A DNA stretch of 37,146 nucleotides, from positions 1-37,146 of the forward strand of contig JACMPG010000270.1 in NCBI GenBank assembly GCA_014377625.1, written 5' to 3'. The notes below the pieces were generated by a model, which worked only from the letters and a program-made list of their open reading frames with translations, was not told where the DNA came from and ran no database searches. Below, one piece after another: positions 5,082 to 36,191 of the stretch. Source of the stretch: Spirosoma sp. (GTDB lineage Bacteria > Bacteroidota > Bacteroidia > Cytophagales > Spirosomataceae). Each line of letters opens with the position of its first letter. The stretch's first letter is position 1. The position numbers and the translations under genes were made by a program.

Positions 5082-5228
5082 GCGTAGGTTGGTCACTGGT
5101 ACGCCAGCCCGGTCCTGACCGACCAGCCGCGTCAGCAACAAGTCAGCAACTTAGCTGCAACTACATTGTTAGCCGCTTCGCGGCTGGTCGGACAGGACCG
5201 GGCTGGCGTACCAGTGTCCAACCTACGC
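5082..5228. repeat. Large palindromic repeat, family A copy 1 (50-bp arms)
   Basis: The left arm 5082-5131 and right arm 5179-5228 are inverted copies, with 48 of 50 positions pairing. The two unpaired positions are a T opposite T and an A opposite A. The loop holds TACATTGTTAGCC (5162-5174). The outer end reads GTAGGTTGG in both directions. The right arm overlaps the last six bases of the helicase gene and provides its TAG stop codon. A second member of the family is at 35228-35357, with shorter arms but the same mismatches and loop motif. It may be a MITE or REP-like element; as RNA it would fold into a very stable hairpin between the helicase and hydrolase genes. Confidence 0.9.
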
Positions 5229-6368
5229 GCCCTGCAGATCAATCTCATCCGACTCCAGCATGGTAACGCGCTTTTTCATTTTCTTCTGGATGATGTAAAA
5301 ATGGTGTTCCTCGTCAGGAATAATCAGCGAGATGGCCTGTCCGGCGGCTTCGGCGCGGCCCGTCCGGCCAATGCGATGCACGTAATCTTTAGGCGACCGG
5401 GGCAGCTCAAAGTTAATGACCCAGGGCAGAAACTGAATGTCGATGCCCCGCGCAATCAGGTCGGTAGCCACCAGTACGTTGAGTCGTCCCGCTTTAAAAT
5501 CGGCGAGAGCGTCGGTGCGGCCACCCTGCGTTTTTTTACTGTGGATAGCCCCCGCCCGGATACCGTTCTTATTCAGCTTGACCACCAGATTATCCGCCGT
5601 CCTCACCGACGATACGAACACCAGCACCTGCTTCATGTTCTGGCTTTTGATAATGTACCGCAGCAACGGCCCCTTCCGGTCGGCACTGACGCGGTAAGCC
5701 GTTTGGGTGATCAAATCCAGATTTTCGGGCTCCTCTTCCACCTCGACCCGTACCGGCTCGTGCAGCAAATTCTGGTTGATAATCGTCTGTACGGCGTCGC
5801 CGAGCGTGGCAGAAAACAGGATAGTTTGTCGTTTCCGGGGCAGCAAATCGAAGATGGCATCCATCTCCTCGGCAAAGCCCAGTTCGAGCATCTTATCGGC
5901 TTCGTCCAGCACCAGGATCTCGATACCCGACAGCCGCAGCGCGTTGGCCCGCAGCAAATCGAGCAGCCGCCCCGGTGTGGCCACCACGATATCGGCCCCG
6001 TGAACGGCCACCATCTGCGGGTTGATGGCTACTCCGCCAAACACCGCTACGGTCTTGACCCGCTCCGGCAGGGCATTGCCAAACTCCTGAAATACGCCCG
6101 CTACCTGCGCGGCCAGTTCGCGCGTTGGCACCAGCACCAGTACGGTGGCGTAGCGGGTTTTAGCGGCCTGGGTACGGTGAAACAGTTCGAGAATGGGCAG
6201 GACGAAACTGGCCGTTTTACCCGACCCGGTTTTGGCAATACCCAGCACGTCACGCCCGGATAGAATCACCGGGATAGCCTGTTGCTGAATAGGATAGGGC
6301 TTGCCGTACTGCTGATCGGCCACCGCTTTCAGCAGCGGTTCGGACAAACCGAGAGTTGAAAATGACAT
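5223..6368 (-). CDS. DEAD-box ATP-dependent RNA helicase (RhlE-like)
   Basis: A 381-residue DEAD-box RNA helicase with two RecA-like domains and essentially no C-terminal tail. Visible motifs in order are the Q-motif (PIQ, 26-28), I AKTGSGKT (45-52), Ia PTRELA (81-86), TPGR (131-134), II DEAD (155-158), III SAT (186-188), V around ATDLIARGID (301-310) and VI HRIGRTGR (331-338). This is the complete set, so it should be an active ATP-dependent RNA remodeller in the cytoplasm. It lies 90 bp downstream of a second, longer DEAD-box gene. The stop codon and last codon fall inside palindromic repeat family A, so the end of the protein may have been set by repeat insertion. Confidence 0.95.
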   Translation of the reverse strand: MSFSTLGLSEPLLKAVADQQYGKPYPIQQQAIPVILSGRDVLGIAKTGSGKTASFVLPILELFHRTQAAKTRYATVLVLVPTRELAAQVAGVFQEFGNALPERVKTVAVFGGVAINPQMVAVHGADIVVATPGRLLDLLRANALRLSGIEILVLDEADKMLELGFAEEMDAIFDLLPRKRQTILFSATLGDAVQTIINQNLLHEPVRVEVEEEPENLDLITQTAYRVSADRKGPLLRYIIKSQNMKQVLVFVSSVRTADNLVVKLNKNGIRAGAIHSKKTQGGRTDALADFKAGRLNVLVATDLIARGIDIQFLPWVINFELPRSPKDYVHRIGRTGRAEAAGQAISLIIPDEEHHFYIIQKKMKKRVTMLESDEIDLQGA

Positions 6369-13629: not shown

Positions 13630-14724
13630 ATGCTCACTGTCTTATACCGGTTGCTGGTTTTGCCGTTTTACGTCCGCAATGCCGGTACGTTCCTCGTCGT
13701 GGTATTGCTGGCCTTCGGCTTCATGCGGCCGATAGACCACGAAGCCCTGATTACGGCGGCTCTCGGGTCGCCGTTTTTACTATCGGTGATTATCGGCTTA
13801 TGGACGCTGTACACGTACCGAACGCTCAGCTTTGTGCGAAGCCAACTGGCCGCGCCGGAACATCTGTTCCTTGATACGCTCCGGCTGGTACCGACGCCAA
13901 CGCGCGGGCTGTTCTGGCTGATTTTGCTCGGGAAACTACTGCTACCGGTCATTGGCTATGCCGTCTGGATGCTGGCACGGGCGGTGCATTACGGAGCTTG
14001 GGGAGCGTTTCTCGTCATCATTATCGCCCTTATCACCCTTGTTACACTGGCCGCAGTGGGAGCCGACTACCGGCTACGGCACCATCCACCCAACGCCTTT
14101 CGACTCCCCCGGACTTCGGTAAAGCTGCGCTACGAACTGTTCTTTCCGACGTACTGGCTACGGCACAAACCGCTGTCACTGCTGCTGACCAAGCTGATTT
14201 CGGGCGGGTTGCTGGTGGGCGTTTGCCGGCTCTACCCCACCGACGATTACGACGAGCGGCTGCTGCTCATCGGCCTGATGCTGGCTCTGATTACCCACTC
14301 ACGTGTGGCGCAGGAACTCAGCGATTTTGAGCATCGCTACCTGATTTTTCTGCCCAATTTACCATTGTCAACGGCACAACGGCTAACCCGATACGCGCTA
14401 ACCTACGGGCTGCTGTGGCTCCCCGAACTCCTGCTGCTTTGGCGCAACGTACCGGCCACGGTGTCGATTGGCTACGTGAGTCTGCTCTGGCTAACCGGCT
14501 GGGGCTGGCTACTATTGCTGCACGTGCTGGCCTACGGACGTAACATATCTCCCGAACCCTGGCAAACGGGCGTTTTTTCTGGGTTTATCATCGGCTTGCT
14601 GGCTATCATGTTCGGGTTGCCGGTCAGCGCGTGGCTGCTCGTTGGCTGGGGTGGTGCAGCCGGACTTGGCTATTTCTGGTCGTCTGAATTAAATTTTAAC
14701 ACAGAGGGAACAGAGGATTCATAG
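13630..14724 (+). CDS. Multi-pass membrane protein, probable ABC permease partner
   Basis: A 364-residue integral membrane protein with about nine or ten hydrophobic segments and no soluble domain. No named family motif is evident; it is identified as the permease of the ABC-type system by its position 8 bp after the ATPase. The last residues (NFNTEGTEDS) are hydrophilic and unlike the rest. They are encoded by a palindromic repeat (14706-14796), which also supplies the TAG stop. The natural C-terminus has therefore probably been replaced or extended by a repeat insertion just after the final transmembrane segment. Confidence 0.8.
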   Translation: MLTVLYRLLVLPFYVRNAGTFLVVVLLAFGFMRPIDHEALITAALGSPFLLSVIIGLWTLYTYRTLSFVRSQLAAPEHLFLDTLRLVPTPTRGLFWLILLGKLLLPVIGYAVWMLARAVHYGAWGAFLVIIIALITLVTLAAVGADYRLRHHPPNAFRLPRTSVKLRYELFFPTYWLRHKPLSLLLTKLISGGLLVGVCRLYPTDDYDERLLLIGLMLALITHSRVAQELSDFEHRYLIFLPNLPLSTAQRLTRYALTYGLLWLPELLLLWRNVPATVSIGYVSLLWLTGWGWLLLLHVLAYGRNISPEPWQTGVFSGFIIGLLAIMFGLPVSAWLLVGWGGAAGLGYFWSSELNFNTEGTEDS

Positions 14725-14796
14725 AGGTGAGGGAGACAAAAAATTGACGGAGAATTACAGTTGCTTCTCTGTTTTCTCTGTGAATCCTCTGTTTCC
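14706..14796. repeat. Palindromic repeat family B (CACAGAGGAACAGAGG type) between convergent genes
   Basis: Left arm 14706-14726 and right arm 14776-14796 pair at 19 of 21 positions around a 49-nt loop; the arms contain AACAGAGGATTCA and its complement. The adjacent bases continue the ACAGAG/CTCTGT pattern on both sides. Similar CACAGAGGAACAGAG repeats are, to my knowledge, scattered through many bacterial genomes. It encodes the stop of the permease gene and ends 20 bp from the stop of the convergent MFS gene, so it could act as a terminator in both directions. Confidence 0.75.
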
Positions 14797-14815
14797 TACG
14801 GGTTGAAAAAACTCG

Positions 14816-29550: not shown

Positions 29551-30390
29551 ATGCGTCAGTTTACGTCCATTCCTGCCCTTCGTCAGCACCTCAGCACCCT
29601 TGATCCTGCCCAAACCGTTGCGCTTGTACCCACTATGGGCGCGTTGCACGAGGGGCATTTAGCGCTCGTTGAACAGGCCCGGGAGGAGAACGACGTAGTT
29701 ATATGCAGCATCTTTGTGAACCCCGTTCAGTTCAATAATCCCGCCGACCTGGCCCTCTACCCGCGTACCCTCGACGCTGATCAGGCCCTGCTCGAACCGG
29801 CGGGCTGCGACGTAATTTTCGCGCCCGCTGCCGATGAGATGTATCCCGAACCGCCCGCGCTGATGCTGAACTTTGGCGAACTCGAAACAGTGATGGAAGG
29901 GGCCATGCGACCGGGGCATTTCAACGGCGTGGGTATTGTGGTGGCCAAGCTGTTCAACATCGTACAGCCGCACCGGGCATATTTCGGTCAGAAAGATTTA
30001 CAGCAGGTAGCCGTAGTGCGCCGGTTAATCCGCGACCTGAGTTTCCCCATCGAGCTAATCCGGTTTCCCACCGTGCGCGAACCTGACGGCCTGGCCCTGT
30101 CGTCGCGCAACCGTAACCTAACGTCCACCGAACGCCAACAGGCACCCGCCCTGTACGAGGCCCTGACAATGGCCCATGATCTGCTGCGCGGGGCACAGTC
30201 CGTAACACAGGCCAAAGCCGCCGTAACGGCTCTTTTCGCCGACCGGCCCGGCTTCCGGCTCGAATACGTCGAAGTCGCCAACGCCGACACGCTCCAGCCC
30301 GTTACCGAAGTGCTGGCACCGGGCCAAACCGCCATTTGTATAGCCGCCCACCTCGGCCACGTCCGCCTGATCGACAATCTGGTATTTTGA
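29551..30390 (+). CDS. panC: Pantothenate synthetase
   Basis: A 279-residue PanC, joining pantoate and beta-alanine with ATP in coenzyme A biosynthesis. Signatures include PTMGALHEGH (27-36, ATP-binding HxGH), CSIFVNPVQF, YFGQKDLQQ and LALSSRNRNL. Length is normal and the protein is complete, ending LGHVRLIDNLVF. The last 113 bp (30278-30390) are duplicated 733 bp downstream after a toxin-antitoxin cassette, with mostly synonymous differences. Excision between the two copies would rebuild a full panC. Divergent from the GT5-domain gene. Confidence 0.96.
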   Translation: MRQFTSIPALRQHLSTLDPAQTVALVPTMGALHEGHLALVEQAREENDVVICSIFVNPVQFNNPADLALYPRTLDADQALLEPAGCDVIFAPAADEMYPEPPALMLNFGELETVMEGAMRPGHFNGVGIVVAKLFNIVQPHRAYFGQKDLQQVAVVRRLIRDLSFPIELIRFPTVREPDGLALSSRNRNLTSTERQQAPALYEALTMAHDLLRGAQSVTQAKAAVTALFADRPGFRLEYVEVANADTLQPVTEVLAPGQTAICIAAHLGHVRLIDNLVF

Positions 30391-31010: not shown

Positions 31011-31123
31011 CCAACGCTGACATGCTCCAGCCGGTTAGCGAAGTGCTGGCACCGGGCCAAACCGCCATTTGCATAGCCGCCCACCTCGGCCACGTCCGCC
31101 TGATCGATAATTTGGTATTTTAG
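31011..31123 (+). pseudogene. Second copy of the panC 3' end
   Basis: 113 bp aligned without gaps to 30278-30390 with 9 differences (about 92% identity). It encodes NADMLQPVSEVLAPGQTAIC and on to LIDNLVF, with its own TAG stop in place of TGA. Only two of the differences before the stop change an amino acid (T to M, T to S). No start codon or upstream panC sequence is attached. It ends 9 bp from the stop of the convergent M28 peptidase gene. Likely the displaced original terminus of panC, or the residue of a duplication. Confidence 0.9.
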
Positions 31124-35227: not shown

Positions 35228-35357
35228 GTGTAGGTTGGTCACTCTTGACCGACCAAGTCGCAAAACGGCTAATACTGTGGTTCAAGCTAAGCATACAACA
35301 CAGAGTAGGTACATTGTTAGCCTTCAGCTTGGTCGGACAAGAGTGTCCAACCTACAC
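35228..35357. repeat. Palindromic repeat, family A copy 2 (30-bp arms)
   Basis: Arms 35228-35257 and 35328-35357 pair at 28 of 30 positions. The two unpaired positions are again T opposite T and A opposite A, at the same places relative to the conserved ends as in copy 1 (5082-5228). The loop contains TACATTGTTAGCC (35310-35322), also shared. Outside the right arm the end sequence AACCTACAC is repeated in tandem; this second unit holds the TAG stop of the GT2 gene. It lies between the GT2 and M14 peptidase genes. Confidence 0.9.
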
Positions 35358-35360
35358 AAC

Positions 35361-36191
35361 CTACACCGCATCGACCGGTACTTCGGCTTTGACAGCAGCA
35401 GCGGGGCGGGGGATGTAATGGCGGAAGAAACTGCTGATCTTCATCTGCAACACGCCAAATACCGCTTCCTTGAAAATATGCGACGACATCTTGGAGACGC
35501 CTTTGGTGCGGTCGGTGAAGATGATGGGGACTTCGGCGATGCGGAAACCGTATTTCCAGCAGGTAAACTTCATCTCGATCTGAAACGCGTAGCCCACAAA
35601 TTTGATGGGATTACGCAGGATCACCTCCAGCACCCCGGCCCGGTAGCATACAAATCCTGCCGTGGGATCCATGATGCTCATGCCCGTAATGAACCGGACG
35701 TAAACCCCCGCAAAATACGACATCAGCACCCGGCCCATCGGCCAGTTCACTACGTTAACGCCCTTGATGTACCGCGAGCCAACCGCTACGTCGGCCCCGT
35801 CTATGGCGCAGGCGTGGTAAAGTTTAATCAGGTCTTCGGGGTTGTGCGAGAAGTCGGCGTCCATCTCGAACAGGAATTTGTACCCCCGCGACAACGCCCA
35901 TTTGAACCCGTCGATGTAGGCCGTGCCGAGGCCGAGTTTGCCGCGCCGTTCCAGCAGGTTGAGCCGCCGGTCGGGTCCGGTAGTCGGAAATTCCTCCTGC
36001 AAATCGCGAACGCGCCGGGCCGTACCATCGGGCGAGCCGTCGTCGACAATCAGGATATCGAAGACATCGGACAGGCTGAACACCTTGCGGATAATGGCTT
36101 CGATATTCTCAATTTCGTTGTAGGTTGGTATGACTACTAAGCGTTCTTTCACAGCAAGGGACGTATAGAGTGGCAGGTAATTTATTAACAA
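35361..36191 (-). CDS. Polyprenol-phosphate mannosyltransferase-like GT2 (DPM1 type)
   Basis: A 276-residue family 2 glycosyltransferase of the dolichol/polyprenol-monophosphomannose synthase group. Motifs are PTYNE (22-26), DDGSPDGT (50-57), GLGTAYIDGFKWAL, the metal-binding DADFSH (111-116), and GYAFQIEMKF with a later RTKGVSKMS. There are no C-terminal membrane helices, so it is the soluble, membrane-peripheral form. It should load a sugar (typically mannose or glucose) onto a polyprenyl phosphate for later transfer to envelope polymers or proteins. A GTG at 36152 is an alternative start, since the residues before it are weakly conserved. Stop TAG lies in a repeat unit beside the palindrome 35228-35357. 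Confidence 0.9.
   Translation of the reverse strand: MLINYLPLYTSLAVKERLVVIPTYNEIENIEAIIRKVFSLSDVFDILIVDDGSPDGTARRVRDLQEEFPTTGPDRRLNLLERRGKLGLGTAYIDGFKWALSRGYKFLFEMDADFSHNPEDLIKLYHACAIDGADVAVGSRYIKGVNVVNWPMGRVLMSYFAGVYVRFITGMSIMDPTAGFVCYRAGVLEVILRNPIKFVGYAFQIEMKFTCWKYGFRIAEVPIIFTDRTKGVSKMSSHIFKEAVFGVLQMKISSFFRHYIPRPAAAVKAEVPVDAV

Follow-up and report, generated by a model that had tools for sequence, protein, structure and literature searches.

Two genes in one stretch of a Spirosoma sp. genome end inside, or immediately beside, the same repeat. The stretch, referred to here as the window, covers 37,146 nucleotides (contig JACMPG010000270.1) and carries two copies of the repeat, family A. Does the repeat supply the stop codons of these genes, or did it arrive where the genes already ended? 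The initial annotation raised both possibilities by describing the end of the repeat as either a target-site match or a gene-ending module.

The family A repeats and their transposase gene

Copy 2 (35228-35357) was recognized by its sequence and fold as an inverted REP pair (REPIN/BIME) at the 3' end of the GT2 gene. This gene encodes a glycosyltransferase of family 2 (Pfam PF00535) and occupies 35361-36191 on the minus strand, with its TAG stop at 35361-35363. Pattern matching and folding placed the left REP of copy 2 at 35230-35254 on the plus strand (a GTAG foot plus the hairpin GGTTGGTCACTCTTGACCGACC) and the right REP at 35331-35355 on the minus strand (a GTAG foot plus the hairpin GGTTGGACACTCTTGTCCGACC). 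Copy 1 (5082-5228) is an inverted pair of longer REPs that also belongs to family A. Its left REP, found by pattern match, lies at 5084-5124 on the plus strand, and its right REP at 5186-5226 on the minus strand. A DEAD-box helicase gene (5223-6368, minus strand) ends in the right REP: as the initial annotation had stated, the helicase TAG (5225-5223) lies in the end of the right arm, within the GTAG foot. Each hairpin of both copies has GTAG at its outer foot.

The region of copy 2 (35228-35366, minus strand) has a predicted fold as DNA of -35.2 kcal/mol with a z-score of -7.2, and its left and right hairpins reach -7.3 kcal/mol each as single-stranded DNA. The hairpins of this copy differ by paired base changes between the arms, with GGTC/GACC in the left and GGACA/TGTCC in the right. 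An Rfam search of the window gave no match at gathering scores. The window also contains two direct 111-bp copies that are 94% alike and 733 bp apart (30278-30388 and 31011-31121), as well as a further inverted repeat with 33-nt arms of 82% identity (14694-14726 and 14776-14808) that perhaps belongs to another repeat family.

Family A is defined by a GTAG foot followed by the hairpin GGTTGGWC..GWCCGACC. This strict pattern matched 33 times in the same genome, a draft of 378 contigs, while the reversed-pattern control matched 0 times; 35 other genomes of the genus also gave 0 matches to the strict pattern. The family occurs in three layouts: inverted pairs, an array (on contig C22), and 28-bp double-foot singles bounded by GTAG and CTAC (L029 6798-6825, L030 9021-9048, L031 2516-2543 and L223 4654-4681). 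At one inverted pair (L027, 9290-9330 and 9409-9430), the genes on either side end nearly alike, in TGGATAATGTGAAGTAG, which forms an inverted flank outside the arms.

Contig C22 carries a gene for a REP-associated transposase (RAYT) flanked by family A REPs. The encoded protein scored 81.8 bits against NCBIfam NF047646 (REP-associated tyrosine transposase), above the cut-off of 80, and its sole match in the PDB at E-values up to 0.1 was the E. coli TnpA-REP structure 4er8. The motifs NHVH and WQ are present, and the third motif reads YILNNL, without the final P of YIxNNP. A scan of named genomes for this RAYT gave no close relative; the 14 that it found, in Hymenobacter, Poribacteria and Latescibacterota, share 35-51% identity with it. 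The RAYT gene itself stops (C22, 6485-6487) at the TAG of the next REP foot. Thus GTAG lies 5' of a palindrome, copies are many, dispersed and often in inverted pairs, and the same REPs lie beside a RAYT gene. Judged by these sequence features, family A is a GTAG-tagged REP/REPIN family, a kind of REP that is already known. Ordinary intrinsic terminators would share the position at gene ends, but no T run follows the stems of copies 1 and 2 when the sequence is read directly, and neither the conserved GTAG foot nor the RAYT neighbourhood fits such terminators, which makes this disfavoured explanation very improbable.

Gene stops in and beside REP feet

How often does a REP foot serve as a stop codon? 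REP ends were collected with a pattern looser than the strict one in the window and 24 fetched stretches. Frames were scored by codon use, so that the genes counted here are codon-scored stop-to-stop frames and not annotated genes. This gave 49 REP ends, 29 with a scored gene end in the range from 400 bases before to 120 bases after the foot and 20 without one. A scored gene end lay within 100 bases of 27 REP ends, and in 14 of these 27 the TAG of the foot was itself the stop of the gene (distance 0). The remaining 13 comprised seven genes that stop 3-9 bases outside the foot (one near-stop frame, on the minus strand of contig C15, resembles an antisense frame), five that stop 41-80 bases away, and one that continues into the element for 50 bases. 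An even spread of stops across 101 positions would give 14 at distance 0 with a probability of ~1e-21; the model is crude, but the excess is plain. Long frames (at least 300 codons, any strand) in these stretches stop at TAA in 73 cases, at TGA in 53 and at TAG in 37.

Some REPs end two genes. On each of contigs C111 and C130, a pair of converging genes has its two stops in the two ends of a single REP unit. Thus the 28-bp REP at L030 9021-9048 provides the stop for hemB, a gene of C130, and for cmk, which converges with it. The orthologues of hemB and cmk were not neighbours in the six relatives searched. The names uvrC, lysS, hemB and cmk were borne out by profile comparison, and LytTR, peptidase S9, pcd, purA and TolC are putative names read off the sequences.

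Evidence on where the genes ended in the absence of the repeat comes from orthologues. For GT2, 35 relatives matched and the 29 whose loci were returned were read, leaving six out. The GT2 stop falls at the same codon in 23 of these, one codon off in five and two codons off in one, and the orthologues stop with TAA (12), TAG (12) or TGA (5). The helicase stop falls at the same codon in all 29 relatives read (TGA 18, TAG 6, TAA 5). The last residue of the helicase is A here, versus Y in 28 and F in one of the 29 orthologues; the final codon thus departs from that of the orthologues at the point occupied by the repeat. Among orthologues without the repeat, the bases after the stop are unrelated and any of the three stop codons is used. 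The comparison suggested by the initial annotation therefore gave a divided answer: the codon position of the native stop is shared, and the surrounding bases are not.

Furthermore, protein lengths were compared with orthologue medians for a larger set. The foot-stop set of the orthologue tests came from the looser list and includes a C145 gene and a short C319 LytTR frame that are not at distance 0 in the 27-gene count. The length comparison leaves out the RAYT gene and the LytTR gene of C22; of its 14 foot-stop queries, one, the plus-strand gene of C111, failed the 45% identity filter, which left 13. A length no more than 1 aa from the median was seen for 9 of these 13 and for 5 of the 6 near-stop genes (the helicase and GT2 are included in these counts), compared with 12 of the 20 controls. 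Orthologues exceed three of the foot-stop genes (C289, C145 and hemB of C130) by 2 to 5 aa, and the short C319 LytTR frame differs by 36 aa. Because orthologues without a REP stop at or near the same codon, the repeat, as judged by comparison between species, either replaced native stops or came to lie against them, and proteins were trimmed little. About half of the gene-adjacent family A copies serve as a stop, and the protein is altered slightly or not at all. As a description, then, the term gene-ending module holds.

These results are best explained by a model that we consider very probable. Family A, as a GTAG-tagged REP/REPIN family, would have been spread by the RAYT of C22, and its copies would have landed at, or a few bases from, native stop codons, an insertion history read from other species. 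In genes whose stop coincides with the start of an element, the foot TAG is now the stop in use and the hairpin begins at that codon, leaving the protein end unchanged or nearly so in most cases. Presumably only those insertions survived that kept the gene end intact.

Landing at stops would not necessarily require a choice of target. REPs may insert anywhere, with selection keeping those past the last codons; if, close to the stop, only copies with an in-frame foot TAG survived, many insertion positions would collapse onto distance 0. We give this explanation an even chance. It is consistent with the 14 of 15 genes reading into a REP that are in the stop frame (one third expected), with the seven genes of 27 that end just outside the foot, and with the known preference of REPs for gene 3' ends (PMC3733652). 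However, random cuts in the last codons should shorten proteins, and the observed shifts resemble those of controls, several being 0 or +1 aa. The REP units of C111 and C130 that stop two converging genes also argue against it.

The GT2 gene presents a variant of the foot-stop arrangement. The unit AACCTACAC occurs in tandem, at 35349-35357, the end of the right arm, and at 35358-35366, beyond the arm; the sequence from 35347 to 35366 reads ccAACCTACACAACCTACAC. The first unit is mirrored at 35228-35236 by GTGTAGGTT, which is also how the extra unit reads on the minus strand. The initial annotation described both units as lying outside the right arm. The exact 9-bp tandem is there, but only the second unit is outside. 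That second, outer unit does contain the GT2 stop (35363-35361, minus strand), as had been noted. The stop in use is thus an outer GTGTAG, 9 bases before the element's own foot TAG, and the protein ends in VDAV, as in many orthologues. The classical MITE hallmark, a target-site duplication on both sides, was absent at copy 2, the only copy examined for it: the 9-bp repeat is tandem on one side only, and no direct copy lies outside the left arm.

Two origins of the outer unit can be considered. Either the native gene end is followed by the element, or the unit is a 9-bp tandem copy of the foot region. The second could have arisen by slippage: the foot of the inserted REP would at first have been the stop itself, an arrangement like that of copy 1, and the arm end would then have been duplicated. 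It is a coin-toss whether this occurred. An exact tandem of at least 5 bp ending on GTAG was found at 2 of 49 REP ends, versus 8 among the 2328 GTAG sites of these stretches that do not belong to a REP (binomial P 0.012), and these two ends are GT2 (9 bp) and contig C319 (7 bp). Slippage would account for both exact tandems. On the other hand, the GT2 orthologue of genome G012, which has no repeat there, also ends GCG GTG TAG, so that the first six bases of the outer unit may be native, and the outer AAG TAG of C319 is likewise found in two orthologues (L149, L141).

GTAA-footed REPs in related genomes

Relatives in the genus carry another type of REP, GTAACGCGG..CCGC, whose foot spells a different stop. 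A G precedes TAA in 55 of 58 pattern matches in genome G001, giving a GTAA foot. REPs of this type flank a RAYT gene on both sides in G001 and adjoin one in G002, and the GTAA-footed family was noted beside RAYT genes of congeners at L305-L343 (G001), L247 and L329. The RAYT at L329 of G001 looks split in two frames. The TAA of a GTAA foot is the stop in 7 of 28 G001 genes that end within 100 bases, or in 6 of 27 without L320, which has no clean hairpin.

Does the foot match a target? Like the IS200/IS605 transposases with their target, a RAYT might insert directly 3' of four bases that read as the foot does, GTAG or GTAA. Its in-gene insertions would be purged, the surviving ones would sit on natural stops, and the foot would then be the old stop. 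Sites with and without a REP bear on this possibility. Between G001 and G022, 26 of 27 sites matched at 88-99%, with a REP or a decayed form of it at 25 by alignments read by eye, and no empty site was found among the 27 G001 REP ends; L317 (a 77% match, probably a paralogue) and L320 were set aside. Genome G015, which matches 26 ends at 79-97%, was found by eye to lack such a REP at eight sites (L310, L322, L326, L327, L330, L335, L337 and L342). At L310 and L335, where G001 has foot-stops, the G015 genes (L310/L424 and L335/L437) end at the same codon with GTAA; at L310/L424 the sequence is CTG TAA and then the next gene. The G015 sites may have lost a REP rather than never having had one. 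With that reservation, GTAA kept at both REP-less stop sites hints weakly that the foot matches the target. Two further observations agree with a target match: the GTAG and GTAA families each supply the stop spelled by their own foot, and the outer TAG at GT2, C319 and C107 agrees with some orthologues. However, GTAA ends 16 of 62 G015 genes anyway (~26%, the two sites included), so two of two would arise by chance with a probability near 0.07. GTAA is also absent, by eye, from the junction at the five REP-less G015 sites at which the REP position is past the stop (L322, L326, L327, L330, L337). A target match, the other half of the initial proposal, is therefore possible but less likely than not.

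A test for memory of the GTAG stop in orthologues was dropped as evidence. At 60% identity or more, orthologues had TAG in 9 of 32 foot-stop rows versus 13 of 46 rows for control genes that end in TAG, and at 40% identity in 11 of 39 versus 14 of 49; the controls were the 22 best-scoring of 37 candidates, of which 20 gave an orthologue. Control genes keep TAG hardly above background, so the test has no power at this distance to separate a target from a supplied stop.

Another possibility is that the arrangement is maintained for its function. By analogy with what has been proposed for E. coli REPs, a hairpin at the stop might be kept for stalling the terminating ribosome or for protecting the mRNA end. 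Here, the last base of the stop is paired in the predicted REP stem, and G022 retains each of the six clean GTAA foot-stops of G001, one of them as TAG (GTAG). The GTAG REPs that end uvrC and an FAD-linked oxidase gene (closest model YdiJ, below cut-off) in the genome of the window (G000) have GTAA REPs at precisely the same place in the G012 orthologues, and near the end of a third gene (C107) G012 again has a GTAA REP. REPs of the other family were thus found at or close to the same gene ends in 3 of 18 genes versus 0 of 16 controls. Over three genomes, however, the excess is 4 of 51 versus 0 of 49 (P 0.12), with one of the four (G009 L133) lying over a neighbouring gene end, and many copies lie away from any scored gene end. 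Selected control of gene ending is therefore an unlikely, though not far-fetched, explanation. 

Relatives also differ in the REPs themselves. At one gene end (L321/L403 and L432), a REP pair of the GCGGACATCC type in G015 occupies the precise position of the GCGGGTGG type in G001 and G022. At L323/L392, L333/L412 and L342/L414, G001 and G022 share the arms of the REP pair, but the spacer looks inverted in one relative to the other, as if the loop of the pair flips.

The model of landing at or near native stops can be extended to the genus as a speculation that we regard as improbable on present evidence. RAYTs would spread REPs whose feet take two stop forms, GTAG and GTAA, the foot being the transposase target or left junction; stops would be protein-neutral safe landing places, and gene ends would be reused by different families.

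Relation to known REP systems

Where RAYTs insert REPs and why REPs crowd at gene ends is not settled in the literature consulted. With half of the gene-adjacent REP ends of one genome serving as stops, a sister family with GTAA feet, and a few sites with and without a REP, the idea of safe landing at stop codons becomes answerable by strain sequencing. Mobile DNA may determine where genes end in genomes of this kind.

A literature search for GTAA together with extragenic palindromes returned nothing on REP feet, judged by titles, and a search for extragenic palindromes in Spirosoma returned only a Caldithrix study, again by title. The REP tetranucleotide is described as GTAG or GTGG (PMC6006769, PMC3686654), and GTAA has 0 occurrences in the main text of these two papers. 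REPs have been reported very close to, or immediately after, the stops of RAYT genes (Nunvar 2010).

In E. coli, REP hairpins lie within 15 nt of the stop codon (PMC12306157). There the hairpin comes after the stop, whereas here the stop is part of the repeat. The REPINs of Pseudomonas fluorescens (PMC3116915) have an inverted REP pair as their unit, as here; their excision was seen in sequence reads, whereas no movement of family A copies was observed. Another related system is subclass 2.4 of RAYT/TnpA-REP (Quentin 2018, PMC6006769), which is known in Bacteroidetes and has NHVH, WQ, YIxNN and double-foot GTAG..CTAC REPs in common with the system described here. It differs in having YIxNNP where the RAYT of C22 has YILNNL, and its feet are GT[AG]G, whereas congeners here have GTAA as well.

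Family A resembles the GTAG REPs of Di Nocera 2013 (PMC3733652) in having a GTAG foot and a short palindrome and in occurring as pairs and singles by gene 3' ends. In the available text of that study, GTAG repeats are tied to Proteobacteria, Cyanobacteria, Chloroflexi and the PVC group, with Bacteroidetes named for CGTC repeats only, and the termini of GTAG REPs are said to provide often a TAG stop to flanking ORFs. A count of stop overlaps and a comparison with empty orthologues are given here and have no counterpart in that text. Thus, REP feet that serve as stops are ordinary in kind, and what is added here is their count in this genome, the orthologue controls and the GTAA form.
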